Source: Tridacna crocea
Lineage: Eukaryota; Mollusca; Bivalvia; Cardiida; Cardiidae
Assembly: GCA_943736015.1 (NCBI GenBank)
Contig: OX031059.1
Location: 18,042,001 to 18,106,000, forward strand
Reading direction: 5' to 3'
DNA length: 64,000 nt
The notes under the pieces were generated by a model. It ran no database searches. It was not told the origin of the DNA and saw only the letters and a list, made by a program, of their open reading frames with translations. The translations under genes were made by a program, and so were the position numbers. The stretch's first letter is position 1; every line of letters begins with the position of its first letter. Of the stretch, positions 8,300-49,222 are shown piece by piece.

Positions 8300-9103
8300 G
8301 CCCCATACGCAAGTTGAAATCATTTTCATGTACCCACACGGGCATAGTGGTTTGGAAAATGAGAATTGCAAAATTGCTGGGTCCTGCGTGGCAAAGTGTA
8401 GGGTTTGTAAACTAGAGGTCCCAATGTTTTCCAAAGGCTTCTTCCTCAGGGTCATTAAAACTTGGGATTGTGTGGTTATAGTAGGTTCTGGCTTGCAACT
8501 GGTGTAAACCATATACTAGAGAAAAAAATTTGGGACAAGTCCATATTCAAAGCATTTGCAGATGACAAAGCGTGTCAAGTGAAATTTTCCTGTTTTATAA
8601 TCTCACAAATCGAGTATACTGACGAAATAGAAATTCCCTTCAGAGTGGCCCAATTCAATGAAAACTGATGTCTCTGGAAACTGACGTCACTAAAATATGC
8701 AGTTTGGTGCAGTCTAGGTATCGACTGGCGTTGCCATTTTGGATGTTGCGTTGCATGTGTAGTGATGTTTACGGGGCACTCAAAAGGGAAACTGGCTTTT
8801 CGTGGTTTTTGCCAGGGTACATGATATATAATGTTCCAGCATGTTAACCAATCAGATCACGAGAAATTTCTTTGCAGTATAATGATAAAACCCCTTTTGG
8901 CAAAGCATAGCTCAAACATAACTGGAGGATACAACCATGTAAATAATGATGGTGGTTGTACATCAATATTGTCCATATTAGACCCGATTATCTGCCTATT
9001 ATCAGCCATTTTCCAACCAATCTGCTCATGAAATATTAATATCAGGTTATTCTGATAAGGTTTCACTGGAACTAATCAGGCATTGAATCAGGAAACAATA
9101 ATG
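8300..9103. other. Stretch without supported gene
   Basis: Apart from MITE scraps at about 8420-8575 I see no repeat boundary or splice-bounded exon. Two overlapping frames on opposite strands (8831-9031 plus and 8857-9066 minus) have no recognisable motif. A short 'aaaaccccttttggcaaagcatagctcaaac' block near 8887 resembles the end motif of the bivalve foldback repeat. Confidence 0.3.
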
Positions 9104-9250
9104 TTAACTCTTTACCAAACGACAAAATGTTATACTGGTCCAAATTCAAAGCATCAGCAGACGTCAAATAAATGTAACTCAAAAATTGACATATGTTTCC
9201 AGAAGGGAAGAAAACATTGTGGGAAATGGTAGAAAATGCTGGTTACCAGC

Positions 9251-9458
9251 TGTTACGGGAGACCACTCCTTCCTGCATGGCATATACTCCCGATTTAAAT
9301 ACAATACCTGGCTACTGCGTCAGGGAGATATCTCTTTGGCTCAGTGGTTAGGGTATTGGCTTTGCGTCCGGGAGTTCGGAGTTCGAATCCCGCTCCGATC
9401 CTTATTTCTGCCATGCATTTATTCATTTGTTTCTTTGTTACGGACTTCGTTCGTAAGA
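9251..9458 (+). repeat. 5' LTR of the TRIM
   Basis: 208 bp, identical to 9575-9782 but for two substitutions. TATA-like TTTAAATA at 9294-9301. A tRNA-like segment follows: A-box-like TGGCTCAGTGGTTAGGG at 9337-9353 and B-box-like AGTTCGAATCC at 9380-9390. The LTR begins TG and ends GA rather than the usual CA, judged from the target duplication and the position of the PBS. Confidence 0.88.
9331..9400 (+). promoter_or_regulatory. tRNA-like pol III promoter-type segment in the 5' LTR
   Basis: About 70 bp with the layout of a tRNA gene: an A box (TGGCTCAGTGGTTAGG) and a B box (AGTTCGAATCC) about 43 bp apart. The sequence flanking the B box does not form a proper five-pair T stem, so this is a tRNA-derived promoter relic or module, not a working tRNA gene. 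The second LTR carries the same segment at 9655-9724. Pol III use is an inference. Confidence 0.7.
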
Positions 9459-9476
9459 TGGGGGCTCGTCCGGGAT
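9459..9476 (+). promoter_or_regulatory. Primer-binding site, tRNA-Pro type
   Basis: TGGGGGCTCGTCCGGGAT directly follows the 5' LTR. It equals the complement of the last 18 nt of tRNA-Pro, the primer type known from gammaretroviruses and some LTR retrotransposons. Its position next to the LTR is what identifies the element as a retrotransposon rather than a duplicated SINE. Confidence 0.88.
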
Positions 9477-9563
9477 TGGCCATGGAGCCATAAATCCCAT
9501 TTGTTGTCCAAAATCGGATTCCCTGCCTAATAAGGCTTCGAGTCATCAATAAATGATGACTTT

Positions 9564-9574
9564 AAGAGGGGGTG
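9564..9574 (+). promoter_or_regulatory. Polypurine tract
   Basis: AAGAGGGGG followed by TG, immediately before the 3' LTR, the expected place of the plus-strand primer. The intervening TG is unusual; the LTR start was fixed from the left copy, where TGTTACGG follows the target duplication. Confidence 0.75.
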
Positions 9575-9782
9575 TGTTACGGGAGACCACTCCTTCCTGC
9601 ATGGCATATACTCCCGATTTAAATACAATACCTGGCTACTGCGTCAGAGAGATATCTCTTTGGCTCAGTGGTTAGGGTATTGGCTTTGCGTCCGGGAGTT
9701 CGGAGTTCGAATCCCGCTCCGATCCTTATTTCTGCCATGCATTTATTCATTTGATTCTTTGTTACGGACTTCGTTCGTAAGA
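9575..9782 (+). repeat. 3' LTR of the TRIM
   Basis: 208-bp direct repeat of 9251-9458 with two substitutions. It also holds the tRNA-like segment (A box 9661-9677, B box 9704-9714). The flanking CAGT duplicates CAGC before the left LTR with one change. Confidence 0.88.
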
Positions 9783-9869
9783 CAGTATTTTCTCCGTTTC
9801 CCACAATGTTTTTAAAAGGCTTCTATCTCAGGGTTGTAAAAACTGCATGGGGATTGTTTGGCAAAGGGG

Positions 9870-15184: not shown

Positions 15185-16347
15185 ACTAATTCTTTACTAG
15201 ATGTGAAAATTGCAGACTAGACTGAATTCGAAGCATTTGCAGAAGACAAAATAAATGTGGCTAAGATGTCATTGTGACTTCTGTCTTTGGCTCTTTACCA
15301 ATGTTTTAGGCTTGTCCAAATCGAAAGCATTTGCAAACGACAAAATAAAAGTGACTGAAAATTTGAAATATGTTTTGTGAAGGGTAGAAAACATTGTGGG
15401 AAAAGGAGAAAATGCTGGTTACCAGCATTTTCCACTTTTCCCACCATGTTTTGTAAAGGCTTCTTTCTCAGGGTTGTCAAAAGTAGGGAATGTGTGTGAT
15501 TCTTCTTTTTCCACAATGTTTTCTACTCCTTTTAGGACAAACTAATACGTGAAAAACATTTGAAATGTTATTTGTAAATTCCCTCAATTTAGTCAAGTCT
15601 AAAATTTTGCTGTGTGGTAGAATGTGAGGCAGTAATTCTATGAACAATTGAATTAGACTGTCATTATCCAGTAAAATTATTTAGCAGTAGACAACTTTTG
15701 AAAGCTTCTCTATAAATTATAGATAATCGTCATGAAATATGGTACAATAAGCAAATATACCGGTATGTGAAAACAGAAGGAAAAAGGACAAATACTGTTT
15801 ATCATGAGCAATTTCTTCTTTTACCCAATGGATTTTAACCCTTTCCCAAACGACAAACTTTTGGACTACGCCAAATTGAAAGCATTTGCAGACGACAATT
15901 CAACTCTTGCTGAAAAGATGATTTCTGTCTATAATAGGGTATAAAACATTGTGGGAAAAGGAGAAAATGCTGGTTACCAGCATTTTCTCCTTTTCCCACA
16001 ATGTTTTCTAAAGGCTACTATCCTAGACCTGTATAAACCAGGGATTGTTTGGGAAAGGGTTAATGGCTATCTGTAGGAAGACAAAATAAGGATTGAAAAA
16101 TATCCACAATTTTCTAAAATATCAAATGTTTTCATAAACTGCTCATCCTTAACAGCTTACTACACAGTTCTGAGTTTTAACAACCCTAACAGAGAAGACT
16201 TTTTGGAACAAGCGATTTGTTCTTTTCCCTCAATGTTTCCTACATTTTCAAAGACAAATCCCAATATTTGTGCCATATTTAATTTGTCTTCTGCAAATGC
16301 TTTCAGTTTCAACAAGTTTAAAATTTTGTCCATTTGTAAAGAGTCAA
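15185..16347. mobile_element. TTAA foldback MITEs within a dystrobrevin intron
   Basis: Fragments at about 15185-15270 and 15500-15630, copies at about 15289-15505 (subfamily A), 15835-16063 (TTTCCC-type ends with an A-type GCTGGTTACCAGC centre, a hybrid of A and B features) and 16149-16347 (diverged). An older scrap lies at 15770-15834. Confidence 0.8.
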
Positions 16348-17866: not shown

Positions 17867-19765
17867 TTAACTAATTGCCAAACAACAAAATTTTAGGTTT
17901 GTCCAAATCGAAAGCATTTGCAGAGGACAAATTAAAAGTAACTAAATTTCAAATTTGTTTTGTGAAAGGTAGAAAACATTGTGAAAAAAGGAGAAAAGGC
18001 TGGTTGCCAGAAGTTGTCTTACTTTCATATTTAGAAAATCTTCGAGAACAAGACAAAGAATGTTTTTAACCCTTTCCCAGATAAGTCCTGGTTTTTACAG
18101 CTCTGAGGTTGAAAGCAATTGAAAATACTGTAGAAAAAAGGAAAATTGCTCACAGTTAGCATTTTCTCCTTTTTAGCTCACCGGAGCACGTAGTGCTCAG
18201 GGTGAGCTATTGTGATCGGTTGTCGTCCGTCAACCGTCCGTCCGTAAACAATTACTAAAAAAATTTTCTCCTCTGAAACTGCCCATCAGATTTCAATGAA
18301 ACTTCACAGAAATGATCCTTAGGTGATGCACTTTCAAAATACTTCAAAGATTTGAATTCCATGAAGAACTCTGGTTGCCATGGCAACCAAAAGAAAAAAC
18401 TTTAAAAATCTTCTTGCCCCAAACTGTAAGGGCTAGAGCTTTCATATTTGGCATGTAGCATCATCTAGTGGTCCTCTACCAAAATACTTCAAATTATGGC
18501 CCTGGTGTTGAAAATGGCCCTATGTTGTGGGTTCTCGGATTTCACATAGAAATAAAGAAGGAAATCTTTAAAAATCTTCTTGTCCCAAACTGTAAGGGCT
18601 AGAGCTTTCATATTTGGCATGTAGCATCATCTAGTGGCCCTCTACCAAAATACTTCAAATTATGGGCCTAGTATTGAAAATAGTCCTATGTCGTGGGGTC
18701 TCAGATTTCACAAAGAGATAAAGAAGGAAACCTTTAAATATCTTCTTGTCCCAAACCGTAAGGGCTAGAGCTTTCATATATTTGGTATGCAGCAGTATCT
18801 CGTGACCCTCTACTGAAATACTTCAAATTATGGTCCTGCTTTGAAAATTAGTCCTTTGTTGTTGGTCTTGGAATTCACATAGAGACAAGGAAGGAAATCT
18901 TTAAAAATATTCTTGTCCCAAATGGTAATGGCCAGAGCTCTTATATGTGGCATGTATTATCATCTAGTAGCCCTCTACCAAAATACTTCATATGGCCCTG
19001 ATGTAAAAGATTGGCCCTATGTTGTGGGTCTTCGGAAAGTCTTCAGAAATCTCTTTGTCACAAATGGTAATGGCCAGAGCTTTCATATTTGGTATGTAGC
19101 ATCATCTAGTAGCCCTCTACCAAAATCCCTTAAATTATTACCCTAGTGTCGAAAATGGCCCTATGTTGTGGGTTCTCGGATTTCACGTAGTGATAAAGAA
19201 GGAAATCTTGGAAAATCTTCTTGTCCCAAACCATAAAGGCTAGAGCTTTCATATTTGGCATGTAGCATCATCTAGTGGCCCTCTACCAAAATTCTTCAAA
19301 ATATGGCCCTGGTATGAAAGTTAGCCCTATGTTGTTGGTCTCAATAATTCTACCTAGGACGGATTTTGAATAATTTCACTTTGATCTTCATTCTTACAGT
19401 AGGTTTTGCTTGTCCAGTGTGAAATTTTGAAGTCTCAAGTCAAATTGACTTTAGACTTGGTAAACATGTTTGTTACATTGACTGCTCTTTGCAACTATTA
19501 TACCTCCTTGACAACTGGCGGTGGGATTGCATATCTTGCGACAATTTTCTGTTCTTGTTTCATTATCATTTGCCCTTAAACCTCAGTGTTTGGTAGTTAT
19601 CTTCATTGTAGACCTTTAATGCTTAGTACTCAGGTGAGCGATATAGGACCATCATGGTCCTCTTGTTTCCACAATGTTTTCTTCCCTTACAGATGAAGAT
19701 ACCACCTTTTTAGCCACTTTAAATTTGTTGTCTGCAAATTCTTTCCCAAACAATCCCTGCTTTTT
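17867..19765. mobile_element. Foldback MITEs, the second split by another element
   Basis: 17867-18015 is a right-truncated subfamily A copy. A second MITE starts with TTAACCCTTTCCCAG at 18066 and breaks off in its stem (…CATTTTCTCCTTTTT) near 18172; its remaining arm (CCACAATGTTTTCTTCCC...) resumes at about 19669-19765. The AGCTCACC element at 18172-19668 is inserted between. Confidence 0.8.
18172..19668 (+). mobile_element. AGCTCACC element, copy 1 (internal tandem repeats)
   Basis: Left end AGCTCACCGGAGCACGTAGT, followed by GCTCAGGGTGAGCTATTGTG and GTCCGTCC repeats; right end CAGGTGAGCGATATAGGACC, then ATCATGGTCCTCTTGTTT. The left tip is itself a small palindrome around GAGCAC..GTGCTC, and GGACCATcATGGTCC forms one on the right. 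The body has six or more diverged ~150-bp direct repeats, each with 'aatcttcttgtcccaaa' and 'agctttcatatttggca'. No coding. Copies 2-4 are at 30607, 32631 and 41641. The type is common in mollusc genomes; its transposition mechanism is unknown to me. Confidence 0.85.
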
Positions 19766-19949: not shown

Positions 19950-20129
19950 GTTTCAGCAGACCAAAATTATCTCATCTGGTAAAGAGCTAAGAATGATTGG
20001 TGATCATCATCAGCCAAGATAAACACAGTGCATAGCGGCATATCTTGTTTTAGAATCAAGTAAAACAACAGTGTATGGAACCGCAGTGAAGTATTGCTAC
20101 ATTTGTATAACAATATATTTCATTTACAG

Positions 20130-20607
20130 AACCAGCCTACCTCACCAAGGATGACACCCCAAGACAGCCCACGTAGTTACAGTGCCTATTCCCCCACAAC
20201 TATCCCGACCCCAATACGCTCTAGTGATGCCCTGATGACCCCAAACACCCCTAGTGGTGACTCCTATATGAGCAGTCTAGGTTACCAACATGGCAGATCA
20301 AGTGTTCCACTAATGAACCAAAATGCATACTACTCGGACACGACCAATACCAGTACAAGTAGTTACAATAACCATGGACGTTTGAGTGCCCCTATTATTT
20401 CCCCTAGTCCCAGTAACACTCATATAACCCCCAATACCCCAGCTATGGAATCATCGACACTACTAGGACTTGAGGGCGATGTTCAACTGGCTTTCAGTCA
20501 ACCCTCAACTTCAGCTATAAGTGTGAAAAATTTACGAAATGATCTTTTGTCAGCTGCAGACAATATAACCGGTGCCATGTCCTCTTTAGTGAGAGAACTG
20601 AATTCTG
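20130..20607 (+). CDS. DTNA/DTNB-like: Dystrobrevin, Ser/Thr/Pro-rich linker and NLRNDLL exon
   Basis: Residues 99-258. After acceptor cattta-cAG it opens [20 protein letters not shown] and continues as a low-complexity linker rich in S, T, P and N (for example [29 protein letters not shown]), probably disordered with many SP/TP sites. The exon closes with GDVQLAFSQ and [19 protein letters not shown] followed by LVRELNS, matching GDVQEAFAQ and NLRNDLLVAADSITNTMSS of vertebrate dystrobrevins. Donor TTCTG|GTAGGT. The linker is longer than in the vertebrate proteins as I remember them. The next MITE starts about 27 bp past the donor. Confidence 0.95.
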
Positions 20608-20633: not shown

Positions 20634-21085
20634 TTTACCCTTTGGCTCACAATCCCAACTTTTGATGACCCTGAGAAAAAAAGCCTTTGAAAGTATTGAG
20701 GAAAAAGGAGAAAATACTAGTAACCATCATTTTCTCCTTTTCCCACAATGCTCTCTGTCCTTACAAAAAGAAATTTACATCTTTGATCTCCTTCTAGTTT
20801 GCTGTCCACAAAAAAATAGGCATGGACAAGTCTAGAATTTTGTTGTGTAGTAAAGGCTTAACCCATTACCACACAATCCCTACTTTTGACGCCCCTGAGA
20901 AAGAAGCCTTTAGAAAACATTGTGGGAAAAGGAGAAAATGCTGGTAACCAGCATTTTCTCCTTTTCCCACAATGTTTCTACCCTTCACAAAACAAATTTC
21001 AAATTTTCAGTCACTTTTATTTTGTCGTCTGCAAATGCTTTCAATTTGGACCAGTCTAGAATATTGTCGTTTGGTAATGGGTTAA
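20634..21085. mobile_element. Two abutting TTAA foldback MITEs
   Basis: 20634-20861 and 20858-21085, subfamily A, sharing the TTAA at 20858-20861. The second is near-consensus: TTAACCCATTACCACACAAT left, TTGTCGTTTGGTAATGGGTT-AA right. Confidence 0.85.
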
Positions 21086-21917: not shown

Positions 21918-21940
21918 ACATCTTCTTATTATATTTTCAG

Positions 21941-21979
21941 AACACAGTGCCAGTGATGATGAAGATGACAATATCAATG
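21941..21979 (+). CDS. DTNA/DTNB-like: Dystrobrevin, 39-bp acidic microexon
   Basis: Encodes EHSASDDEDDNIN between acceptor atattttcAG and donor CAATG|GTAAGA. Phases fit: the exon supplies two bases to finish the Glu codon begun at 20607 and leaves one base for the Gly completed at 22970. Highly acidic with Ser in a casein-kinase-2-like context. Such a small in-frame exon (13 codons' worth) could be skipped without changing the frame. Confidence 0.85.
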
Positions 21980-22144
21980 GTAAGATAATTTTTTTGTACA
22001 AATTAGAGCCTAGTCGATGTTACTTGATTAACCATATTGACAGCTTGTTTACATTATTCATGATTAACATTGTATATTCATGTATATTATCATGTAGTAT
22101 CCTACCCTGGCTGCAATAATAAAGACTAAATGTGACAAGGTATC

Positions 22145-22969: not shown

Positions 22970-23147
22970 GTGAGCTAGAAATTGCAGAGAATTACATGAT
23001 GCAGACTAGAGAAGATCTCGAATCCTGGCAAAAAGAAGTTCAGAAACGGTTGGACCAAGAGACAAAGTTTATCGCAGAACTTAGATCCAAACAGCCTCGA
23101 AGTGGATATAGCAGCAGTAACCATAGCGAGGAAGATGAGAGAGACAG
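22970..23147 (+). CDS. DTNA/DTNB-like: Dystrobrevin, C-terminal helical exon
   Basis: Residues 271-330: starts GELEIAENYMMQTREDLES and runs through a charged helix (QKEVQKRLDQETKFIAELRSK) into a Ser-rich, acidic stretch (SSSNHSEEDERD). Acceptor ccctgcAG, donor GACAG|GTGAAA; phases match both neighbours. The helix likely forms a further coiled coil. This tail does not resemble the tyrosine-phosphorylated tail of vertebrate alpha-dystrobrevin-1 and may be specific to invertebrates or molluscs. A MITE begins 13 bp after the exon, inside the donor region. Confidence 0.9.
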
Positions 23148-23159
23148 GTGAAATTTTTG

Positions 23160-23404: not shown

Positions 23405-25005
23405 TATCCCTTTACCTCGTGGCAAAATTTTAGACCTAAACAAATGAAAGCATTTGCAGAGGACAATTTCATATTGGCTCACATGACGCAACTTCCTTTT
23501 GATAGGGTAGAAAAATGGTTATCAGCATTTTCTCCTTTTCCCACAATGTTTTCAAAAGGCTTCTTCCTCTGGGTTGTCAAATTCAAATATTTTATTCAAA
23601 TATTTAGGCCATTGGCCCATAATATATAAATAATTTTACCATACATTCCCTCACAAGATCTAATCTATTACATCTAGGAGATACTTGAATTCACAATTAT
23701 TAAACTGTTTTCACCTTCCCGCTTTACCAGATTTTAGCCTTGTCCAAAAGTAAAACATCTATAGTCTGCAGTCGACATTGTTCGAAACGGAGAAAATGCC
23801 ATCAGCGTACATTTCCTCTGTTTAACTTATTACCAAACGACAACACCCTACGCTTGTCCAAATCAAAAGCATTTACAGTCGATGAATTAAAAGTGACTGA
23901 AAATTGGAAATTTGTTTTATGAAGGGTAGAAAACAATGTAGGAAAAGGAGAAAACGTTGGTTACCAGCATTTTCTCCTTTTCCCACAATCCCCTCTAGAG
24001 GTTTCTTTCTCAGGGTATTCAAAAGTAGGGATTGTGTGGTAATGGGTTAACTCTTTACCAAATGACAACATTTCGAGTATGTTCAAACTGAAAGCGCATG
24101 CAGATGACAATTTCAGCATTACTCAGATGATGAGGTTAGTCCCTGGAAGGGGAGAAATCATTGTGAGAAAAGGAGAAAAAGCTGATTACCAGTGTTTTCT
24201 CCTTTGCCCACAATGCTGTCCAGAGCCTTCTTCGTCAAGGAAGGTCGTTAAAAGTTGGATTATGTGGTAAAGGGTTACCACAATGTTCAACTTATGATAA
24301 CTTCTTACATTGAAAATTATTATGCTAAAATATAAAAATAAAGGCTGCAGGCCTTTGGTTCAAACAGTTTATGTTACTAACACCTACCATAAAAATTTCT
24401 AGTCTAGTCCAGATTCAATACACTCAGCGGTTGTCAAAAGTTGTCATTGTGTGGTAAAGGGAGATTGTTTAGTAAAGTATTAAATGACAGGAAGCTAAAG
24501 CTCTAGTTTGAAATCTTTACAGATATATACATAGCTTGCATTCAAGGTCAGAGTATGTGACAGATGATGGAGAGTCATTTGTACGCACTGATGATGAAAG
24601 TGTCGTCAGGACTGACGATGAAGATGCGGAGTTATATGATAACCATCCAAAGGTAGGCTGAGGTTTAACTCTTTACTATATGACAAAATTCTGGACTTGT
24701 CTAAATTGAAAGCATTTGCAGACAACAAAAACAATATGACTCAATAAATTGAAATTTAATTTAGGAAGGGTAGAAAACATTGTGGGAAAATGAGAAAATG
24801 CTGGCTTGAAGACCCTGAGAGAGAAGGCTTTTGAAAAAAATGCTGGAAAAGGAGAATATGCTGATAACCAGCATTTTCTTTCCCAACAAGTTTTCTACCC
24901 TATAGAAGACAGAAATCATCACTTTAGCTATGTTTAATTTGTCATAGAAAGATGCTTTCAGATTAGTCCAGTTCAAAATTTTGGCATTTAGTAAGGAATC
25001 AGCTG
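23405..25005. mobile_element. TTAA foldback MITE cluster around exon 24523-24652
   Basis: 23405-23585 (left stem arm deleted), scraps at 23720-23820, 23822-24050 (subfamily A, complete), 24047-24277 (shares TTAA; diverged), 24370-24480 (right-end scrap), 24665-24800 joined at 24800 to 24800-25003, two incomplete copies fused near the stem tip. 24280-24370 shows nothing recognisable. Confidence 0.75.
24523..24652 (+). CDS. DTNA/DTNB-like: Dystrobrevin, RTDDE-repeat exon
   Basis: Residues 330-373, from YIHSLHSRSEYVTDDGES to LYDNHPK. Contains the tandem motif SFVRTDDE-SVVRTDDE; a third copy, SYIRTDDE, is in the next exon. Threonine followed by DDE is a good casein kinase 2 context. Acceptor atctttacAG, donor CCAAAG|GTAGGC; phases agree with neighbours. 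Frame continuity and the shared motif with the last exon support inclusion in this gene. Confidence 0.88.
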
Positions 25006-25277: not shown

Positions 25278-27713
25278 GTGATATCTTGGCATTCAGTGCA
25301 CCTACACTTGTATTTCTTGGCTTTTTCACACAAATACAGACACAACTCATTTTCCAAGTCACATACAACTTTTCTCAAAAATATTACTGACAAGATCATT
25401 TCAGTCGCCTCTAAAACCATTCCTAACAAAACAATCACTGTCAGACCAAACGATATTCCATGGATGAACATTGAAATACGCAAACTTATTAGAACACGCA
25501 AAAGATTACATAAAGAAGCCAAACGGCTAAACAATGTTGAAACATGGTCAAAGTTTAGAGAAGCGCGAAATACTGTAACAAAACATATACGCAAAGCCAA
25601 ATTAAACTACCAAAATAAATTAGTTGAAATAATCAATTCATCCAGTACTTCACCAAAGACATGGTTCAAAGTCGCTAAACGACTAACACAAAAGCAAACA
25701 ACATGCACCATTCCAACTCTTTATGATAACAATATGGAAGCATCTACAGACATATCCAAAGCAGAACTTTTGAATTCGTATTTTTCTAGATAATCGACAC
25801 TGGACGATCACGATCAACAACTACCACACAACATAACATTTATCGAATCTACCTTGTCGCATCTCACTATTACTCCATGCGATGTAAAAGACGCAATTTC
25901 TCTCATTGATTCCTCTAAGGCTAGTGGTCCTGACTTTGTTAGCCCAAAACTTCTGTGTGAAGGGTCTACAGAATAATGTACTGTCTTATCTCACCTATTT
26001 AATTCACTTCTTGCCTTATCTTACTTCCCCAGTGCTTGGAAACTAGCAAATGTTACACCTATATTTAAAAAGGGTGATCCATCCAAGCCATCTAACTATC
26101 GACCAATTTCTCTGCTTAGTTGTCTTGGTAAATTATTTGAAAGATGTGTCCACAAATATTTATACAACTACCTGAATGATAACAGACTTTTGACGAAGTA
26201 TCAGTCCGGATTTATCAAAGGTGACTCGACTACTAACCAATTAATTTTTATCTATGATGACATAAACCGAGCTTTGGACGAAGGACTTGAGGTCCGTGCC
26301 GTGTTCTGTGACATCTCCAAAGCGTTTGATCGAGTGTGGCACAGAGGTCTCCTCCACAAACTGTCTTCGCTTGGTATCTGTGGACCTCTCCTCAAATGGT
26401 TTTCTTCTTACTTAACATTACGGAAACAACGTGTTGTTTGCTCTAACGTTTCGTCAGACTGGTCTATTATCAATGCTGGTGTCCCCCAGGGCTCCATTTT
26501 TGGGCCTTTATTATTCCTAATTTATATAAACGACATAGTGTCCCAAATCAACACTAACGTTCACCTTTTTGCCGACGATACCAGTTTGTATGTAATTGTG
26601 GAAACACCAGATCAGGCAGCGACAGCTCTTAACACAGACCTTGAAGCTGTTCATTGTTGGTCTAAAACCTGGCTAGTTTCTTTCAATCCTTCAAAAACAG
26701 AGTCTATTATATTTTCAAGGAAACGAAAGAAACCTGAACATCCTTCCCTTTACATGAATAATGTGGCTATAAAAAATGTATCCTCACATATGCATCTTGG
26801 TGTTACTTTTTCTGAAGACCTGAAATGGTCATCCCATATATCTTTTATACTTAAGAAAGCTTGGCAGAGAATTGGAATGATGAAAACTGTCAAACATTTC
26901 TTAAATAGGTCTAGCCTCGAACGAATGTACTTTTCTTTTATTCGACCTCTCTTAGAATATTCAGATGTCGTCTGGGATAATTGCACAGAAACCTTAAAAC
27001 ATGAAATCGAGGCAGTACACAACGAAGCAGCTAGAATTGTTACTGGTGCTACTAAATATTGTAACATCCAGAAACTCCTATGCGATCTTAAGTGGGAAAC
27101 ACTAGCAGCAAGAAGATGTAAACATAGACTCATTTTACTTTATAAAATGTTAAACGGTCTATCACCCACGTACCTGTCAAATCTTATCCCTGGGCGTGAT
27201 CAAACCGATCCTGGAAGATACAATTTAAGGAGTATCAGGTGTGTAAACGCAAGGACCCAATCCTACAGCTCTTCTTTTTTACCTCGCACAATTCGGGAAT
27301 GGAATACCTTGCCACAAAGTACAAGAAACGCCGCGTCCTTATCACAGTTTAAATCAGTATTAAACCGCACCTTACAAAAATCATCTCCATTGCTTAATTT
27401 TGGGACACGAAAGGGACAGATCTTACATGCACGCTTACACTTAGGATGTAGTTCGCTTAACCATGATCTACACAGACGATCTCTAATCGACTCACCATTA
27501 TGTTCCTGTGGCCAAATCGAACTTGTAGATCACTACCTTCTTTATTGTCCTAAGTATCATCAGCTACGTAATCAAAATTTTTATGATATTCCATGTCCGC
27601 TTATCACCTCCAATTTATTAAATGGAAACAAACACCTTACCTTTGAACAAAACAAGTACATATTTGCTTGTGTCCATCACTTTATTTTAGCGTCAAAAAG
27701 ATTTTCTTCATAG
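25278..27713 (+). pseudogene. Non-LTR retrotransposon reverse transcriptase, two in-frame stops
   Basis: One frame runs from 25278 to 27713 with only two stops, TAA at 25791-25793 and TAA at 25974-25976, and no frameshift. Before the stops is a basic linker (IRTRKRLHKEAKRL) typical of the region after the endonuclease; the endonuclease is missing, so the copy is 5'-truncated. Reverse transcriptase blocks follow: NYRPISLLSCLGKLFE, FCDISKAFDRVWH, AGVPQGSIFGPLLFLIYIND and the catalytic FADD. The C-terminal part carries a Cys-His motif (SPLCSCG...DHYLLYCP). The layout suits the Jockey/CR1/I group; I cannot choose the clade. It lies in the last dystrobrevin intron. The uninterrupted part from 26190 is 507 codons. 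Confidence 0.95.
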
Positions 27714-28499: not shown

Positions 28500-28655
28500 G
28501 AACTACCCAATGAGATGTCATCTAGTCGTTACTCTACTGAAGAAGAAGGCTATTTACAATCAGATGCGGAATCTTACATTCGGACAGATGATGAAGATGG
28601 TGCCAATACAGAGTCAGATTGGGAAGAATCAATGAAACGTTGGATTAATAGATAG
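28500..28655 (+). CDS. DTNA/DTNB-like: Dystrobrevin, last coding exon
   Basis: Residues 374-424 and the TAG stop at 28653-28655. Acceptor ttgcattAG. Opens ELPNEMSSSRYSTEEEGYLQ, repeats SYIRTDDEDG and ends in SDWEESMKRWINR. Acidic tail with a basic-aromatic end. The motif RTDDED links it to the exon 24523-24652 across the retrotransposon-bearing intron, and the phase-0 junction gives an unbroken reading frame. I could not place a polyadenylation signal with confidence. Confidence 0.9.
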   Translation, partial: ELPNEMSSSRYSTEEEGYLQSDAESYIRTDDEDGANTESDWEESMKRWINR

Positions 28656-29960: not shown

Positions 29961-30606
29961 TACAGCAGGTATCATTTCCTTCAGGTTTTCTCCTTGTTGT
30001 GCTAAATGTCATTTATGGAAATTCTAAGGTCAAAATTTCGCCTATGCTATTCTTATTTGCCATAATGGTCATATTATGTTTTGGCCCCAGTTGTCTGTCT
30101 GTTAGTTCGTCAGCAATTTCTTGTGTGCACAACTCCTCCAATAGTTTTCATAGGAATATGTTCCAATTTACCACAATAAAGTCTTATGATGTGAAGTTGG
30201 GAATGTTAGTTTTAAAATTTGAATATCTACAGGCTTCCTGATTTTAACCCATTTTACTGACAAGCCGCTTCAGGTATATATGTGCCACTTTGTGAAGCTG
30301 TTGTTTGTTTTAAATGAGCAGTGACAATGATTATTTATTTAGGGTTTAGGCTTTATTACTTCTTACAAAGGTTGTAATTGTTTTAACATTTTCATCATTT
30401 TTTTTTCCTGTAAGTATTAATTTTCAGATTACAAATGTAAAATATTTTGATGTGCAATAGTTTTTCTTTTTTTCTGGCATCCATCATTTATTCTTATGGG
30501 TATAGGTGGTTATTTTTTTTCTATGTTACTTTTGTTTTGTCTTTTCTTTCTTTTTTGTTTTTCTTTGTTTTTCTTTTTTCATATGTTAATCTAAAGCTAT
30601 TTGATT
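29961..30606. other. Stretch without supported feature
   Basis: No exon or repeat boundary recognised; 30500-30600 is pyrimidine-rich low complexity (runs of ttttctttctt). The frame at 29945-30241 has hydrophobic stretches but no domain, start context or splice support. Confidence 0.3.
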
Positions 30607-32318
30607 TTTAGCTCACCTGAGCACAATGTGCTCAAGGGGAGCTTTTAGGGTCACTGGCTGTCCGTCGTGCGTCGTCAACAATTCTTTAAACATCAACTCC
30701 TCCTAAACTGCTGGGCCAATTTGGACCAAACTTGGCAGGAATGTTCCTTGGGAGGTCCTCTTTAAAAATTGTTCACAGAATTTGATTCCGTCAAAAACTC
30801 TGGTTGCCATGGCAACCAAATGGAATTTTTTAGCAAATTCTTTAAAAATCTTCTCCTCTGAAACCACTGGTCAGATTTTGAAATTATTTCACAGATATGT
30901 TCCTTGGGTGACCCTCTTCAAAAATTGTTCGTGAAATTCTGATCCCTCAAAAATCATGGCTCTGATGAATGGGGGCTACTTGCGCTATACAGAAATCAAG
31001 GAATTCTTTAAAAATCTTCTCCTCTGAAACCCCTGGTCGGATTTTGAAATTATTTCACAGATATGTTCCTTGGGTGACCCTTTTCAAAAGTTGTTTGTGA
31101 AATTTTGATCCGTCAAAAATTGTGGCTCTGGTGAATGGGGGCTACAAGTTTGCACTATACAGAAATCAAGGAATTCTTTAAAAATCTTCTCCTCTGAAAC
31201 CGCTGGTCGGATTTTAAAATTATTTCACAGATATGTTCCTTGGGTGACCCTTTTCAAAAATTGTTCGCGAAATTTTGATCCATCAAAAAATGTGGCTCTG
31301 GTGAATGGGGGCTACTTGCACTATACAGAAAAATGAAGGAATTCTTAAAAAATCTTCTTCTCTGAAACCGCTGGTCAGATTTTGAAATAATTTCACAGAG
31401 TTGTTCCTTGGGTGACCCTTTTAAAAAATTGTTCCTGAAATTTTGATTTGTCAAGAAACATGGCTCTGGTGAATGGGGGCTACTTGCACCATAGGGAAAT
31501 GAGGAAATTCTTAAAAAATTTTCTTCTATGAAACTGATGGTCAGATTTTGAAAGAATTTCTCAGGGAAGTTCCTTGGGTGACCCTTTTCAAACAGTTTTC
31601 GCGAAATTTTGATTGGTCAAGAAACATGGCTCTGGTGAATGGGGGCTACTTGCACTATAGGAAAATGAAGAAATTCTTAAAAATTCTTCTTCTCTGAAAC
31701 GGCAGGACAGATTTTGAAATGATTTCACAGGGATGATCCTTGGGTGACCCTTTTCAAAAATTGTTCACAAAATTGTGATCCGTCAAGAAACATGGCTCTG
31801 GTGAATGGGGGCTACTTGCACTAAAAGAAAATGAAGAAATTCTTGAAAGTTCTTCTTCTCTGAAACCCCTAGTTGGATTTTAAAATAATTTGACAGGGAT
31901 GTTCCTTGGGTGATCCTTGCTCTTGTGAATGGGAGCTACTTGCACTATATGGACATGATGAAATTCTTGAAAATTCTCTTTCTCTGAAACCCCTGGTCAG
32001 ATTTTAAAACAAAATTTCCGAAATGTTCCTTGGGTGACCCTTTTGAAAACTTGTTTGTAAATTTTGATCCGTCAAGAAACATGGCTCTCGTGGATGGGGG
32101 ATACTTGCTCTTATACAGAAATGGAAGAATTCTTAAAAATTCTTCTTTTTGAAACTGATGGTCAGATTTCGAAATGAATTTTACAGGTGACCTTTTGAAA
32201 ATTGCTTAGCAAAATTATATGTATGGTTCCAATGTTTCAATACCTCAAAAAAGAAATAGGCTATGGTCATCTCAAAAATTCAGGTGAGCGATCCAGGGCC
32301 ATCTTGGCCCTCTTGTTT
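30607..32318 (+). mobile_element. AGCTCACC element, copy 2
   Basis: AGCTCACCTGAGCACAATGT left, then GCTCAAGGGGAGC; right end CAGGTGAGCGATCCAGGGCC, then ATCTTGGCCCTCTTGTTT. The body holds about nine diverged direct repeats of ~150 bp, each with 'ttccttgggtgaccct' and 'ggctctggtgaatggggg' motifs. No coding. Confidence 0.85.
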
Positions 32319-32474
32319 GTAATTGCCATAAAAGTCAGGATTTATGAAAATCCAGCTGCCTCAATACATGTATGCAAAAAGTGGTGATAGTAATATGTAT
32401 AAGACCTGTCACTGGCCGCTATAGCCATTTGCTATTTGAATATAGCTGGAAACCTGTTGGATCTGGTGTTTCAA

Positions 32475-34406
32475 TTAAGTCTTTACAAGACTACAAAATT
32501 TTAGATTTGTGCAAATTTAAAGTAGCAGACAACCAGTTGAATATGACTGAAATAATGAATTATGTTTCAAAATATGCAGAAAATATTTATGGGAAAAGAA
32601 GAAAGTGCTGATTGTCAGCATTTTCTCTTTTTAGCTCACCTGAGCACAACGTGCTCAAGGGAAGCTTTTAGGATCACCCGGTGTTTGCGTGCGTCGTCCA
32701 CAATTCTTTAAACATCAACTCCTCCTAAACCGCTGGGTGGACTTGGACCAAACTTGGCAGGAATGTTCCTTGGGAGGTCCTCTTTAAAAATTGTTCACTG
32801 AATTTGATTCCATCAAAAACTCTGGTTGCCATGGCAACCAAATGGAATTTTTTAGCAAATTCTTTAAAAATCTTCTCTTCTGAAACCGCTGGTCAGATTT
32901 TGAAATAATTTCACAGATATGTTCCTTGGGTGACCCTTTTCAAAAAATGTTAGTGAAATTTTGATTCGTCAAAAACTGTAGCTCTGGTGAATGGGGGCTA
33001 CTTGCACTATACAGAAATGAAGGAATTCTTTAAAAATCTTCTCCCCTGAAACCGCTGGTCGGATTTTGAAATAATTTCACAGATATGTTCCTTGGGTGAC
33101 CCTTTTCAAAAGGTGTTCGTGAAATTTTGATGCGTCAAAAAATGTGGCTCTGGTGAATGGGGGCTACTTGCACTATATGGAAATGAAGGAATTCTGGAAA
33201 AATTCTTCTTCTCTGAAACTGCTAGTCAGATTTTGAAATAATTTCACAGAGTTGCTCCTTTGGTGACCCTCTTCAAAAATTGTTCGCGAAATTTTGATTG
33301 GTCAAGAAACATGGCACTGGTGAATGGGGGCTACTTGCATTATAGGGAAATGAAGAAATTCTTAAAAATTCTTCTTCTCTGAAACAACTGGTTAGATTTT
33401 GAAATAATTTCACCGAGTTGCTCCTTTGGTGACGCTTTTCAAAAGGTGTTCACGAAATTTTTGATTGGTCAAGAAACATGGCTGTGGTGAATGGGGGCTA
33501 CTTGCACTATACAGAAATGAAGAAATTCTTAAAAATTCTTCTTCTCTAAAACTGTTGGTCAGATTTTGAAATAATTTAACAGACTTGTTCCTTGGGTGAC
33601 CCATTTCAAGAAACATGGCTGTGGTGAATGGGGGCTACTTGCACTATACAGAAATGAAGAAATTCTTAAAAATTCTTCTTCTCTGAAACAGCTGGTTAGA
33701 TTTTGAAATAATTTCACAGACTTATTCCTTGGGTTACCCTTTTCAAAAATTGTTCGCGAAATTATGATTGGTCAAGAAACATGGCTCTGGTGAATGGGGG
33801 CTACTTGTACTATATGGAAATGAAGAAATTCTTGAAAATTCTTCTTCTCTGAAACCCGTACTCAGATTTTAAAATAATCTGACAGAGATGTTCCTTGGGT
33901 GACCCTTTTCAAAAGCTGTACATTTAATTTTGATCCATCGAGAAACATGGCTCTTGTGAATGGGGGCTACTTGCACTATACGGACATGATGAAATTCTTG
34001 AAAATTCTCTTTCTCTGAAACCCCTGGTCACTTTTTTTTTAAAAGAAATTTTCCGAAATGTTCCTTGGGTGACCCTTTTCAAAACTTGTTCGTATATTTT
34101 ATCCATCAAGAAACATGGCTCTCATGGATGGGGGCTACATGCTCTTATACAGAAATGAAGAATTCTTAAAAATTCTTCTTTTTGAAACTGATGGTCAGAT
34201 TTCGAAATGACTTTTACAGGTGACCTTTTGAAAATTGCTTGGCAAAATTATAAATTTGGTTCCAATGTTTCAATACCTCAAAAAAAAAAAAAAAAAAAAA
34301 AAAAAAGACTATGGTCATCTCAAAAATTCAGGTGAGCAATCCAGGGCCATCTTGGCCCTCTTGTTACTCAATGTTTTCAAAAGCCTTTTTTCTGAAGGTC
34401 ATCTAA
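32475..34406. mobile_element. TTAA foldback MITE split by AGCTCACC copy 3
   Basis: Left part 32475-32630 (TTAAGTCTTTACaAgac ... cagcattttctcttttt) and right part 34366-34406 (actcaatgttttcaaaagcc...). The break is in the second stem arm between CTCTTTTT and the CAATGTTTTC, the same position as in the MITE split at 18172. Confidence 0.8.
32631..34365 (+). mobile_element. AGCTCACC element, copy 3
   Basis: Close relative of copy 2 in the same orientation, 313 bp further on: AGCTCACCTGAGCACAACGT left, CAGGTGAGCAATCCAGGGCC and CTTGGCCCTCTTGTT right, with ~150-bp internal repeats. It contains a ~29-bp A-run near 34278-34306. Copies 2 and 3 share even their right-hand regions (tttcaatacctcaaaa). 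Confidence 0.85.
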
Positions 34407-40236: not shown

Positions 40237-40499
40237 TGTTACTTCGTCTTGATTTACATACAATACCAAATAGCCGTGTTGGGGAGATATATCTCTTTAG
40301 CTCATTTGTTAAGCTGTTGGTCTTTTAAATATCGAAAAACAAGGAAATTCTCTGCCTAGGTTCGAATCTCATGAAATTTGGTTCGTCTTTCAGTTATGCA
40401 TTTGTTGGGAGCTTTCATGATTGTAAGATGGGGCCTTATTTGGGATTGGCCACTGAGCCATTAATCTCATTTATTGTCCAAAAATGGACTCCCTGCCTT
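40237..40499 (+). mobile_element. Diverged TRIM relative: one LTR plus interior
   Basis: Aligns with the TRIM at 9251: TGTTACttcg..., then ATTTACATACAATACC, GGGGAGATATATCTCTTTAG, CTCAttTGTTAagcTgTTGG (A box region), GGTTCGAATCTC (B box, 40359-40370), TTATGCATTTgTT, TGATTGTAAGA, then a decayed PBS TGGGGCCTTATTTGGGAT (40429-40446) and interior CCACTGAGCCATTAATCTCA to GGACTCCCTGCCTT. A and B boxes are further apart than in the young copy owing to an insertion. No second LTR: the sequence runs into a MITE at 40498. Confidence 0.8.
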
Positions 40500-41115
40500 A
40501 ACCTATTACCACACAATTCCTACTTTTGACGCCCCTGAGAAATAAGCCTTTAGAAAACATTGTGGGAAAAGGAGAAAATATATCATCAATTAATTTAATC
40601 CACAACAGTGAAGTTGTCTTGCATTTGGAAGTTGTAACTCCAGTTGTCTACTGTCCAGTAAAGTTGGGTGTGGGTGGGGGTTGTCTGAAGGCCTCTGGAG
40701 TAAGTAATATAGTAGGAATTACTACTAACAGTGAGGCAGCATCAATTAGGTGAAATAATGGTACATCAAACTTTCACATATTTACTTTGTGAAGCTTTCA
40801 CATATCTATGGCTGATTATGATTGCTTAGTATGTGAAATTTTCACAAATGTCTGGCTGAGGACTTGTGCATTTTGTGAGACTTTAACTTGTCTATGGCTG
40901 ATCATAATTGCATACATCCAACTTCCACATAATTATGTCTGTGGCTTCTGACTTGTGCCTTTTGTGAGACTTTTGCATTGCCCATGTGAAATTTTCACAC
41001 ATATCAGTGGCTGATGATTGGTGCATTTTATAAAACTTTCGATTGTGTCTACATGTATTATTGTTGCATTAACCCTTTACCAGACGACAAAATTTTAGCC
41101 CTGTCCAGATTGAGA
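40498..41115. repeat. Truncated MITE, then degenerate tandem motifs
   Basis: 40498-40580 is the left half of a subfamily A MITE (TTAACCTATTACCACACAAT ... GGAAAAGGAGAAAATA) cut at the stem. About 40770-41060 has loosely repeated 'tatggctgatcatgattg' and 'gtgcattttgtgagactttt' motifs. 41069-41115 is another MITE left end. Confidence 0.65.
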
Positions 41116-41640: not shown

Positions 41641-43445
41641 AACAAGAGGACCATGATGGTCCTATATCGCTCACCTGAGTATATTTGTAACTTATATGGT
41701 TTATCAAGGGCAGGCTATTAATTCTTTTCAAATAAGGCATACCCTGGGGTTTGTCACAAAAATATGTTTACAGATTTCCTTCTTTGTCTTTGGCCAGTGG
41801 AGCTAAAAGCTGCTGCTTATCATCAATTTTTCTCTTCACAGTGTCTTGTTCCCTTTTTGACTTGTAGTTTAGCCATTACCAGACGACAAAATTTTAGACC
41901 GTTCCAAATTGAAACAAATTGCAGACGACATTTTAAAATGTATCTAAAATGAAAAATAAGTGATCTATATGGTAGAAAAGATTGTGAGAAAGGAGAAATT
42001 GCTTGTTACAAACAATTTCTCCTTTTTAGATGGAAGTGATTTTAAAAGATTTCCTTCTATGATTCTATGTGAAATAGTGTGCACCAGGGCACAGAGCCAA
42101 AATATGACCCCAAGGGGATAATTTTAATTACTTTTATAAAGGGTCACTAGATGATGCTACATGCAAAATATGAATGCTCTAGCCTTTATGGTTTGTCACA
42201 AGTAGATTTTTAAAAGATTTCCTTCTTTGTTTCTATGTAAAATAGGGTGCGCCCGGGCAGAGCCCAAATATGACCGCAGAGGGATAATTCTAGCAATTTT
42301 GGTAGAAGATTATCAGATTTTGCTACATAGCAAATATGAATGCTCTAGCCATAATACGGTTTGTCAGAAAAAGATTTATTAAAGGTTTCCTTCTTTGTTT
42401 CTATGTAAAATAGGGTGTGCCCAGGCAAAGCCCAAATATGACCCAAGGGGAATAATTTTAACAATTTTGGTAAGGGGTCACCCAATGATGCTTCAAACAA
42501 AATATGAATGCCCTCCGCCTTATGGTTTGTCACAAGAAGATTTTTAAATATTGTAAAATAGGGTGTGCCCGGGCAGAGCCCAAATATGACCGCAGAAGGA
42601 TAATTTCAACAATTTTGGTAGAAGATCATCAGTTAATGCTACACACTAAATAGGAATGTTCTAGCCATTATGATTTGTCACCAGAAGAAGATTTAAAGAT
42701 TTCCTTCTAAATTTCTATGTAAAATAGGGTGCGCCCGGGCAAAGCCCAAATATGACCCCATGGGGATGATTTTAACAATTTTGGTGAGGGGTCACCCAAT
42801 GATGTTTCAAACAAAATATGAATGCTCCCAACCTTATGTTTTGTCACAAGAAGATTTTTAAAATAGGGTGCGCCCGGGCAGAGCTCAAATATGACAGCTG
42901 AGGAATAATTTAAACAATTTTGGTAGAGGATCATCAGATAATGCTACATACCAAATATGAATGCTCTAGCCATTATGGTTTGTCAGAAGAAGATTTTTTA
43001 AAGCTTTCCTTCTTTGTTTCTATGTAAAATAGGGTGCGCCCGGGCAAAGCCCAAATATGACCCCAGGGGAATAATTTTAACAATTTTGGTAAAGGGTCAC
43101 CCAATGATGCTTCATACAAAATATGAATGCTCCCGGCCTTATGGTTTGTCACAAGAAGATTTTTAAAGATTTTTCCATTTTCAGCCATTTTGTTGCCATG
43201 GCAACCAGAGTTTTTGTTGGAATTAAATTCTTTTAACAATTTTTGTAGAGCTTCACCCAAGGAACATTCCTGCCAAGTTTTATTAAGATTGGCCTTCTGG
43301 TTTTGGAGGAGAAGATTTTTAAAGAAATTGTTAACGGACGGACGGACAGATGGACGGACCGACGGACGGACGGACGGACGGACGCCGGACGATGACCGGT
43401 CACAATAGCTCCCCCTGAGCACGTTGTGCTCAGGTGAGCTAAAAA
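41641..43445 (-). mobile_element. AGCTCACC element, copy 4 (minus strand) with an old MITE inside
   Basis: Right end on the minus strand is AACAAGAGGACCATGATGGT (41641) and the left end AGCTCACCTGAGCACAACGT (near 43440 on the reverse). The internal repeats carry 'gggtgcgcccgggcaaagcc' and 'ttttggtaaggggtcaccca'; the GGAC tetranucleotide array at 43334-43385 is the terminal GTCC repeat of the family expanded. A MITE copy is inserted at about 41875-42035 (left end lost the first TTAA base; tip AAATTGCTTGTTACAAACAATT). Open frames here (42973-43470) are translations of the repeats. Confidence 0.8.
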
Positions 43446-48099: not shown

Positions 48100-49222
48100 T
48101 TAGATATTAACTTGTTACCAGGATTTTCTCATTTTCCCAGTGTTTTCCGAAGGTTTCCTTTTCAGGGTCATTAAAAGCTGGGACTGTGTGGTAAAGGGTT
48201 AAATATTCTCAGGGTGTTTTTTTTTGCTGTGACAATGACGGTTCTAAAAGAAACTGAATTCTATAGATTAGATAAGACTTTAACTATTAACCAAAGGACA
48301 AATTATAGACTGGTCCAAATTGAAAGCATTTGCAGACGAAAAAATAAATGTGACAGAAAAATCAAAATTTGTGCTAGGAAAGGTAAAAAAAACATTGTGG
48401 AAAAAGGAGAAAATGCTGGTTACCAGCATTTTCTACTTTTCCCACAATGTTTTTAGAAGGCATCTTTCGCAGGGTTGTTATAAGTCGGGATTGTGTGGTA
48501 AAGGGTTAAGAAAAATATTCATACTGTTTAACCCTTTACCAAACACCAAAATTTGAGACTGGCCCGAAATGAAAGCCCTAGCAGACGACAAAATGATGGT
48601 AACTCAAAAATTGAAATTTTTTTCCAGGTGGGTAGAAAACATTGTGGGAAAAGTAGGAAATGCTGGTTATCAGCATTTTCTCCTTTTCACGTTATGTTTT
48701 CAAAAGGCCTCTGTCTCTGGGTCGTAAAAAACAGGGATTGTTTGGTAAAGGGTTAAGACTTATTACAAATTGGTTCAGCAATTTCCAGAAGAGACTAATG
48801 AAATGGAAAATTAACAGATTGGTAACTTGCCATTATTGATCCTAAAGGACAAAAGCTTTTAAAAATCTTGACGGAAAAGAAGAAAATACTGGTAACCAGC
48901 ATTCATTTGTTGTCTCACTCTCTTTTCTACCCACAATGTTTTCAAAAGCCCTCTTCTTCAGGGTTGTTTAAATTCATGATTGTGTGGTAAATGGTTAACT
49001 CATTACCGAACGACAAAATTTTAGGTTTGTCCAAATTGAAAGCATTTGCAGACAACAAAATAAAAGTGCATGAAAATTTGAAATTTGTTTGTGAAGGGTA
49101 GAAATCATTGTGGGAAAAGGAGAAAATGCTGGTTACCAGCATTTTCTTTTTTTCCCACAATGTTTTCTAAAGGCTTATTTCTCAGGAGCGTCAAAAGTAG
49201 GGATTGTGTGGTATTGGGTTAA
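48100..49222. mobile_element. TTAA foldback MITEs in the last intron of the coiled-coil gene
   Basis: 48100-48203 (left half lost), 48280-48509 (complete A), 48530-48756 (complete A), about 48841-48997 (diverged) and 48994-49222 (complete A, TTAACTCATTACC ... GGTATTGGGTTAA). The last ends about 30 bp from exon 49254-49412. Confidence 0.85.

Follow-up and report, generated by a model that had tools for sequence, protein, structure and literature searches.

A miniature LTR element with a tRNA-like promoter module in a probably heterodont bivalve genome

Anatomy and insertion site of the element

The window analyzed here (the whole stretch of DNA, 64,000 nucleotides long) carries a short element of 532 bp, which is bounded by two long terminal repeats (LTRs) and lies within a repeat of the host. 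Its structural features and target site are as follows:

9247..9250, strand not assigned: left target-site duplication CAGC; the joined flanks match uninterrupted repeat copies
9251..9458, plus strand: 5' LTR, 208 bp, 206/208 identical to the right LTR
9294..9300, plus strand: TATA-like TTTAAAT, 5' of the A box
9325..9334, plus strand: perfect palindrome GAGATATCTC, just 5' of the A box
9438..9456, plus strand: 8-bp hairpin at the U5 end, adjoining the primer-binding site, not exceptional
9459..9476, plus strand: primer-binding site (PBS), 18 nt complementary to the tRNA-Pro 3' end
9541..9561, plus strand: hairpin AGTCATCA-ATAAA-TGATGACT, 21 nt, shortly upstream of the polypurine tract and containing the only AATAAA of the interior
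9564..9572, plus strand: polypurine tract (PPT) AAGAGGGGG
9575..9782, plus strand: 3' LTR, 208 bp
9783..9786, strand not assigned: right target-site duplication CAGT, one base off

The first-pass annotation had described two 208-bp LTRs with two differences, a 116-bp interior, and an 18-nt tRNA-Pro primer site right after the left LTR, and all of these were recovered. The LTRs (9251–9458 and 9575–9782) differ at LTR positions 74 (G/A) and 180 (T/A), which corresponds to 2/208 or about 1% divergence. The PBS TGGGGGCTCGTCCGGGAT (9459–9476) is perfectly complementary to the 18 nt at the 3' end of human tRNA-Pro(TGG), CCA included; the tRNA sequence was that given in excerpts of PMC12217144. The same 18 letters occur in a probe printed in PMC4587795 (in the portion available), which describes the PBS for proline tRNA in murine leukaemia virus. 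The PPT had been placed directly before the right LTR; the tract itself is present, but two bases (TG) separate it from the LTR. The interior (9459–9574) is too small for gag or pol, and no capacity to encode mobility proteins is expected (open frames were defined from stop to stop with a length of at least 110 aa). The element is real, and its LTR-PBS-PPT-LTR layout is confirmed. Its insertion was, in our judgement, probably recent.

Three stretches were folded and compared with 200 shuffles each; as they were chosen by eye, the z-scores are uncorrected for this choice. The stretch with the hairpin before the PPT (9530–9580) gave a z-score of -3.0 with 2/200 shuffles equally stable, 9300–9345 gave -2.42 (5/200), and the U5-end hairpin (9425–9480) gave -0.77 (38/200).

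The element sits inside a palindromic host repeat, which made an empty-site test possible within the 64-kb window. The flanks were joined without the right CAGT and produced 224 alignments, 176 of them spanning the joint. When one base less was required on the right and the locus itself was excluded, 175 alignments spanned the joint; 164 were gap-free there and 11 were not (3/11 with extra bases), while 87/175 read exactly CAGCATTT, all counts taking in both strands of the palindromic repeat. These uninterrupted paralogous empty sites support an insertion with a 4-bp duplication, and the CAGC/CAGT pair proposed at the outset, alike in 3/4 bases, is borne out by them.

Merged, the 224 matches (the two flanks of the locus included) cover 120 places and 12,566 of the 64,000 bases. 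The host repeat is MITE-like, with the core AAAACATTGTGGGAAAAGGAGAAAATGCTGGTTACCAGCATTTTCTCC..., and occurs window-wide, for example at 15343–15482, 20852–21022, and 48342–48756; a 20-base piece of it was not found in open-licence literature text. Among the 60 longest self-matches listed, we also observed long tandem-like arrays at 18170–19341, 30605–34365, and 42038–43172, whose internal copies are about 70 to 86% alike. The first and the last of these arrays are related and lie in opposite orientation.

A tRNA-like module in both LTRs

Within the LTRs, and in a decayed relative elsewhere in the window, the following features were located:

9337..9347, plus strand: A box TGGCTCAGTGG (5' LTR)
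9338..9392, plus strand: tRNA-like stretch, 55 bp, with tRNA-Pro as the best of 10 human tRNAs
9380..9390, plus strand: B box AGTTCGAATCC (5' LTR)
9661..9671, plus strand: A box (3' LTR)
9704..9714, plus strand: B box (3' LTR)
40237..40500 (ends set by eye), plus strand: decayed relative with one LTR-like stretch, a PBS-like site, and a partial interior

The A-box-like and B-box-like sequences that had been reported about 43 bp apart in each LTR are indeed found at 9337/9380 (spacing 43 bp) and 9661/9704. A strict A+B pattern, composed after the sequence had been inspected, was scanned against both strands of the window and matched only at 9337 and 9661, in the two LTRs; 100 dinucleotide shuffles, made for one strand, gave a single match. 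By itself, the B-box pattern occurred five times on the plus strand (in the two LTRs and once in the relic among others) and never on the minus strand, compared to a shuffle mean of 1.16 per strand.

Alignment of the LTR stretch 9338–9392 with tRNA-Pro scored 46, while the maximum among 300 mononucleotide shuffles of the left LTR was 27 (0/300). For seven of the 10 human tRNAs (Pro, Arg, Lys, Gln, Ser, Asp, and Glu), none of the 300 shuffles reached the observed score; the remaining scores were reached by 2 (His), 24 (Gly), and 63 (Val). When the comparison was repeated with two gap costs and 200 shuffles, Pro ranked first both times. No shuffle reached the scores of Pro, Arg, Lys, Gln, and Asp at either cost; the counts for Ser were 1 and 2, and those for Glu 0 and 8. 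The two LTRs do not differ over the tRNA-like stretch. A check of the LTR for a tRNA gene, which the first-pass annotation had suggested, came out negative: Neither Rfam, even at E 10, nor ARAGORN found a tRNA in the LTR. Since the stretch also folds no better than shuffles (131/200 equally stable), the module is a promoter remnant at most and not a tRNA. A sub-threshold riboswitch match in Rfam at E 10 (9205–9273), which spans the host flank into the LTR start, was taken as chance.

The tRNA that is closest to the LTR stretch (9338–9392) is also the tRNA of the primer site (9459–9476), which may be a coincidence. Capture of the primer tRNA as the source of the module was not adopted. The module lies in sense orientation, and the isotype ranking is limited to 10 human tRNAs. 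For the relic, Ser comes out on top, sharing this rank with His at the second gap cost, and Pro is ninth or tied last.

The relic retains several parts of the element. Its LTR-like stretch is 73% identical over 75 bp by BLAST, interior bases 1 to 70 are 81% identical, and the PBS-like site at 40429 is mismatched at 5/18 positions; the right half of the relic was not found in the BLAST list of the window, and the first 27 LTR bases are without a partner in the alignment. The palindrome GAGATATCTC matches at 10/10 bases and, with two bases (TA) inserted, is still palindromic. The relic keeps 8/11 bases of the A box, and its B box at 40359 begins with GGTTC, as compared to AGTTC in the element. 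The global alignment of element and relic pairs GTTCGAATC with itself. A MAFFT alignment of the two copies misplaced the relic B box (3/11 identical), and the segment identities that it gave for the A–B spacer were set aside.

T-runs, poly(A) signals, and the choice of polymerase

RNA polymerase III (pol III) terminates at runs of at least four T. We found no TTTT in the 532-bp sense strand; the nearest downstream run lies in the host:

9788..9791, plus strand: first TTTT 3' of the element, located in host DNA and a putative stop for pol III; the T-run starts 6 nt past the element

Among the TTTT-free gaps of the window, which have a median of 39, the one that contains the element (9009–9788) is exceeded in length only by 18264–19364 (1100 bp). 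Segments of 532 bp taken every 50 bases lacked TTTT in 18/1270 cases, those over the element included. The 324-bp unit of LTR plus interior has 10 T-runs of three, 0/10 reaching four, whereas 1009/2175 T-runs of at least three do so in the rest of the window. The capping of T-runs in the unit has a P of 0.002 by the window rate and of 0.016 to 0.022 when the composition of the unit itself is used. For the absence of TTTT, dinucleotide shuffles give a P of 0.0275 and mononucleotide shuffles one of 0.086. A whole-element shuffle value of 0.0005 was discarded, as it counted the duplicated LTR twice. For comparison, 1/4 A-runs of at least three in the unit reaches four, and there is one TTTT among 10 T-runs of the relic. 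Capping of sense-strand T-runs at three is thus a suggestive signal of moderate size, based on one 324-bp unit. With no TTTT in the sense strand, pol III could continue to the host T-run 6 nt beyond the element.

The motif A[AT]TAAA is absent from the left LTR, and a single AATAAA is found in the interior, at 9548, where it would harm a template of RNA polymerase II (pol II). This bears on the strongest competing explanation, in which the element is an ordinary TRIM transcribed by pol II from the TATA-like motif at 9294, and the tRNA-like stretch is a passenger from a SINE insertion into an ancestral LTR. TTTAAAT lies some 30 bp 5' of the GGGAGATATCTC region, which would suit such a start, as would the presence of TTTACATA at the corresponding position of the relic and the 10/10 conservation of the palindrome that lies between TTTAAAT and the A box. 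However, the distribution of poly(A) signals (none in the left LTR, one in the interior), the T-runs capped at three, and the occurrence of A and B boxes in both LTRs all argue against it, and we consider this explanation unlikely. From these sequence features, we infer that the element uses pol III. Points against it, besides the negative tRNA searches and folding, are the B box, which begins with AGTTC rather than the GGTTC reported as conserved, the single TTTT and the 8/11 A box of the relic, and the TATA-like motif, from which pol II may start.

Relation to Helenus and a proposed replication cycle

The combination of a SINE-like pol III promoter in the LTR with the layout of an animal TRIM had been put forward as new, with no described mollusc family of such kind known. 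The anatomy and the tRNA-like module stand, but the novelty does not: Kojima 2024 (PMC10886601, in the parts available, as throughout) names Helenus, a group of TRIMs with tRNA-derived sequence in their LTRs from fungi, plants, and six animal phyla, including 51 molluscan (bivalve) families with hosts in five orders of Pteriomorphia (Table 1 therein). Helenus elements are 311 to 1263 bp long with 4-bp duplications in animals; bivalve primers include tRNA-Pro, Gypsy is the likely helper in animals, and a Gypsy-13_CGi counterpart is described. Most families have a box A with TRGCY and YGG and a box B with GGTTC, and pol III use is stated to be unvalidated for Helenus (PMC10886601). Among the papers listed in searches of the open-licence literature for later work, no other one on Helenus was found.

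The present element shares with Helenus the TRIM structure, a tRNA-derived A/B stretch in both LTRs, the PBS and PPT, the 4-bp duplication, and the tRNA-Pro primer. Its A box TGGCTCAGTGG fits the Helenus box A, while its B box has AGTTC in place of GGTTC. By its description, the element is best filed as a new member of Helenus. It differs in that the molluscan hosts of Helenus belong to Pteriomorphia, while the host here is probably heterodont, and in its terminator-free sense strand, a feature not discussed in the main text of PMC10886601, as far as available, in which Heterodonta and "TTTT" have 0 occurrences and "terminat" has 2.

The affinity of the host was judged from two neighboring coding regions. 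C-terminal exons of a dystrobrevin lie on the plus strand (20127–20606, 21940–21981, 22972–23148, 24524–24652, and 28500–28652, with the stop at 28653–28655) and match PDB chain 9c3c_V with an E value of 1.4e-7. Over 81% of the joined exons, the nearest named protein, from Dreissena polymorpha, is 64% identical, as compared to 53% over 44% for Tegillarca granosa and 42% over 100% for the gastropod Batillaria. A tree was built from the host sequence and 16 further rows hand-picked from lists of 17 and 52. In this tree, the host, Dreissena, and three unnamed proteins form a group (support 100/99), apart from Tegillarca and the gastropods; the three unnamed rows are less than half filled, one has a long branch, and named dystrobrevins of oysters, mussels, or scallops are absent from the comparison. 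A 578-codon frame of a non-LTR element (25977–27713, plus strand), which is located in the intron before the final dystrobrevin exon, contains RVT_1 (E 2.3e-32). Among the best 120 of 6836 matches, its reverse transcriptase is closest, of the named entries, to that of Mercenaria mercenaria, a heterodont (65% over 87%), followed by Candidatus Thiodiazotropha entries at about 55% and Pinctada imbricata at 52%. Dreissena is placed in Heterodonta and the order of Tegillarca in Pteriomorphia (excerpts of PMC6934838 and PMC10886601). Together, these affinities point to a heterodont bivalve as the likely host.

Membership in the published bivalve biv-TRIM family (PMC6934838, in the portion available) is very unlikely. 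Its direct repeats of 202 to 218 bp are comparable in length to the 208 bp found here, but its interior measures 77 to 80 bp as opposed to 116 bp, its PPT is GGGGAGA in most copies, no canonical PBS was identified there, and the conserved TGATCCCAAAGGAC is, by eye, absent from the interior of our element; the comparison covers the published description of biv-TRIM. The phrase "polymerase III" has 0 occurrences in the available main text of that paper. Less credible still is a pair of tRNA-related SINEs or a tandem duplication mimicking an LTR element, which would account for the A/B boxes but not for the exact 18-nt PBS after the left repeat, the PPT before the right one, or the 4-bp duplication backed by uninterrupted repeat copies.

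Two other groups of TRIMs carry small-RNA-gene promoters. Cassandra of plants (PMC7215508, in part) likewise has a pol III promoter in its LTR; according to PMC10886601, this promoter stems from 5S rRNA, the Cassandra LTR contains a terminator, and the terminal redundancy is 18 bp, in contrast to the tRNA-derived module, the lack of TTTT, and the long predicted redundancy of our element. Ajax of nemerteans is also 5S-derived and generates 5-bp duplications (PMC10886601). No 5S rRNA match, the feature of Cassandra and Ajax, was found by Rfam in the LTR. Exact patterns of the LTR, the interior, or the PBS plus interior had 0 matches in viral contigs and 0 in genome contigs, which means little because these collections hold only viral, bacterial, and archaeal DNA; a tRNA-Pro gene-end pattern also had 0 matches in viral contigs.

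The best explanation overall, and one we hold to be very probable, is a Helenus-type element that combines LTR replication with putative transcription from the LTR by pol III and that would depend on an autonomous partner. Pol III would start slightly 5' of the A box, at about 9325–9335, pass through the interior and the 3' LTR, which offer no TTTT on the sense strand, and stop at the host T-run at 9788. In the predicted RNA of about 460 nt, the portion of the LTR that lies 3' of the start would occur twice, which would make a poly(A) signal unnecessary. Minus-strand synthesis would be primed by tRNA-Pro, the first strand transfer would proceed via the stretch present twice, and the PPT would prime plus-strand synthesis. 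For copying and integration, the element would rely on enzymes supplied by an autonomous LTR element, probably a Gypsy primed by tRNA-Pro.

Our analysis corrects the claim of novelty and contributes a Helenus copy that is well preserved and has many paralogous empty sites. What is new is modest: a probable extension of the Helenus range to heterodont bivalves and the testable idea of terminator avoidance. We put forward only tentatively that a Helenus lineage of heterodont bivalves has been cleared of pol III terminators on its sense strand, so that pol III reads through the whole element, stops in host DNA, and yields a long terminal redundancy without an LTR-encoded 3' end. If true, this would be an alternative to the LTR terminator of Cassandra, and molluscan Helenus would predate the split of Pteriomorphia and Heterodonta, or have had a second origin, or have been transferred horizontally. 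The question bears on the origin of the repeated ends that reverse transcription requires when an LTR element is transcribed by pol III, and it could be put to the published families by asking whether their T-runs are capped at three from the A box to the end of the 3' LTR.
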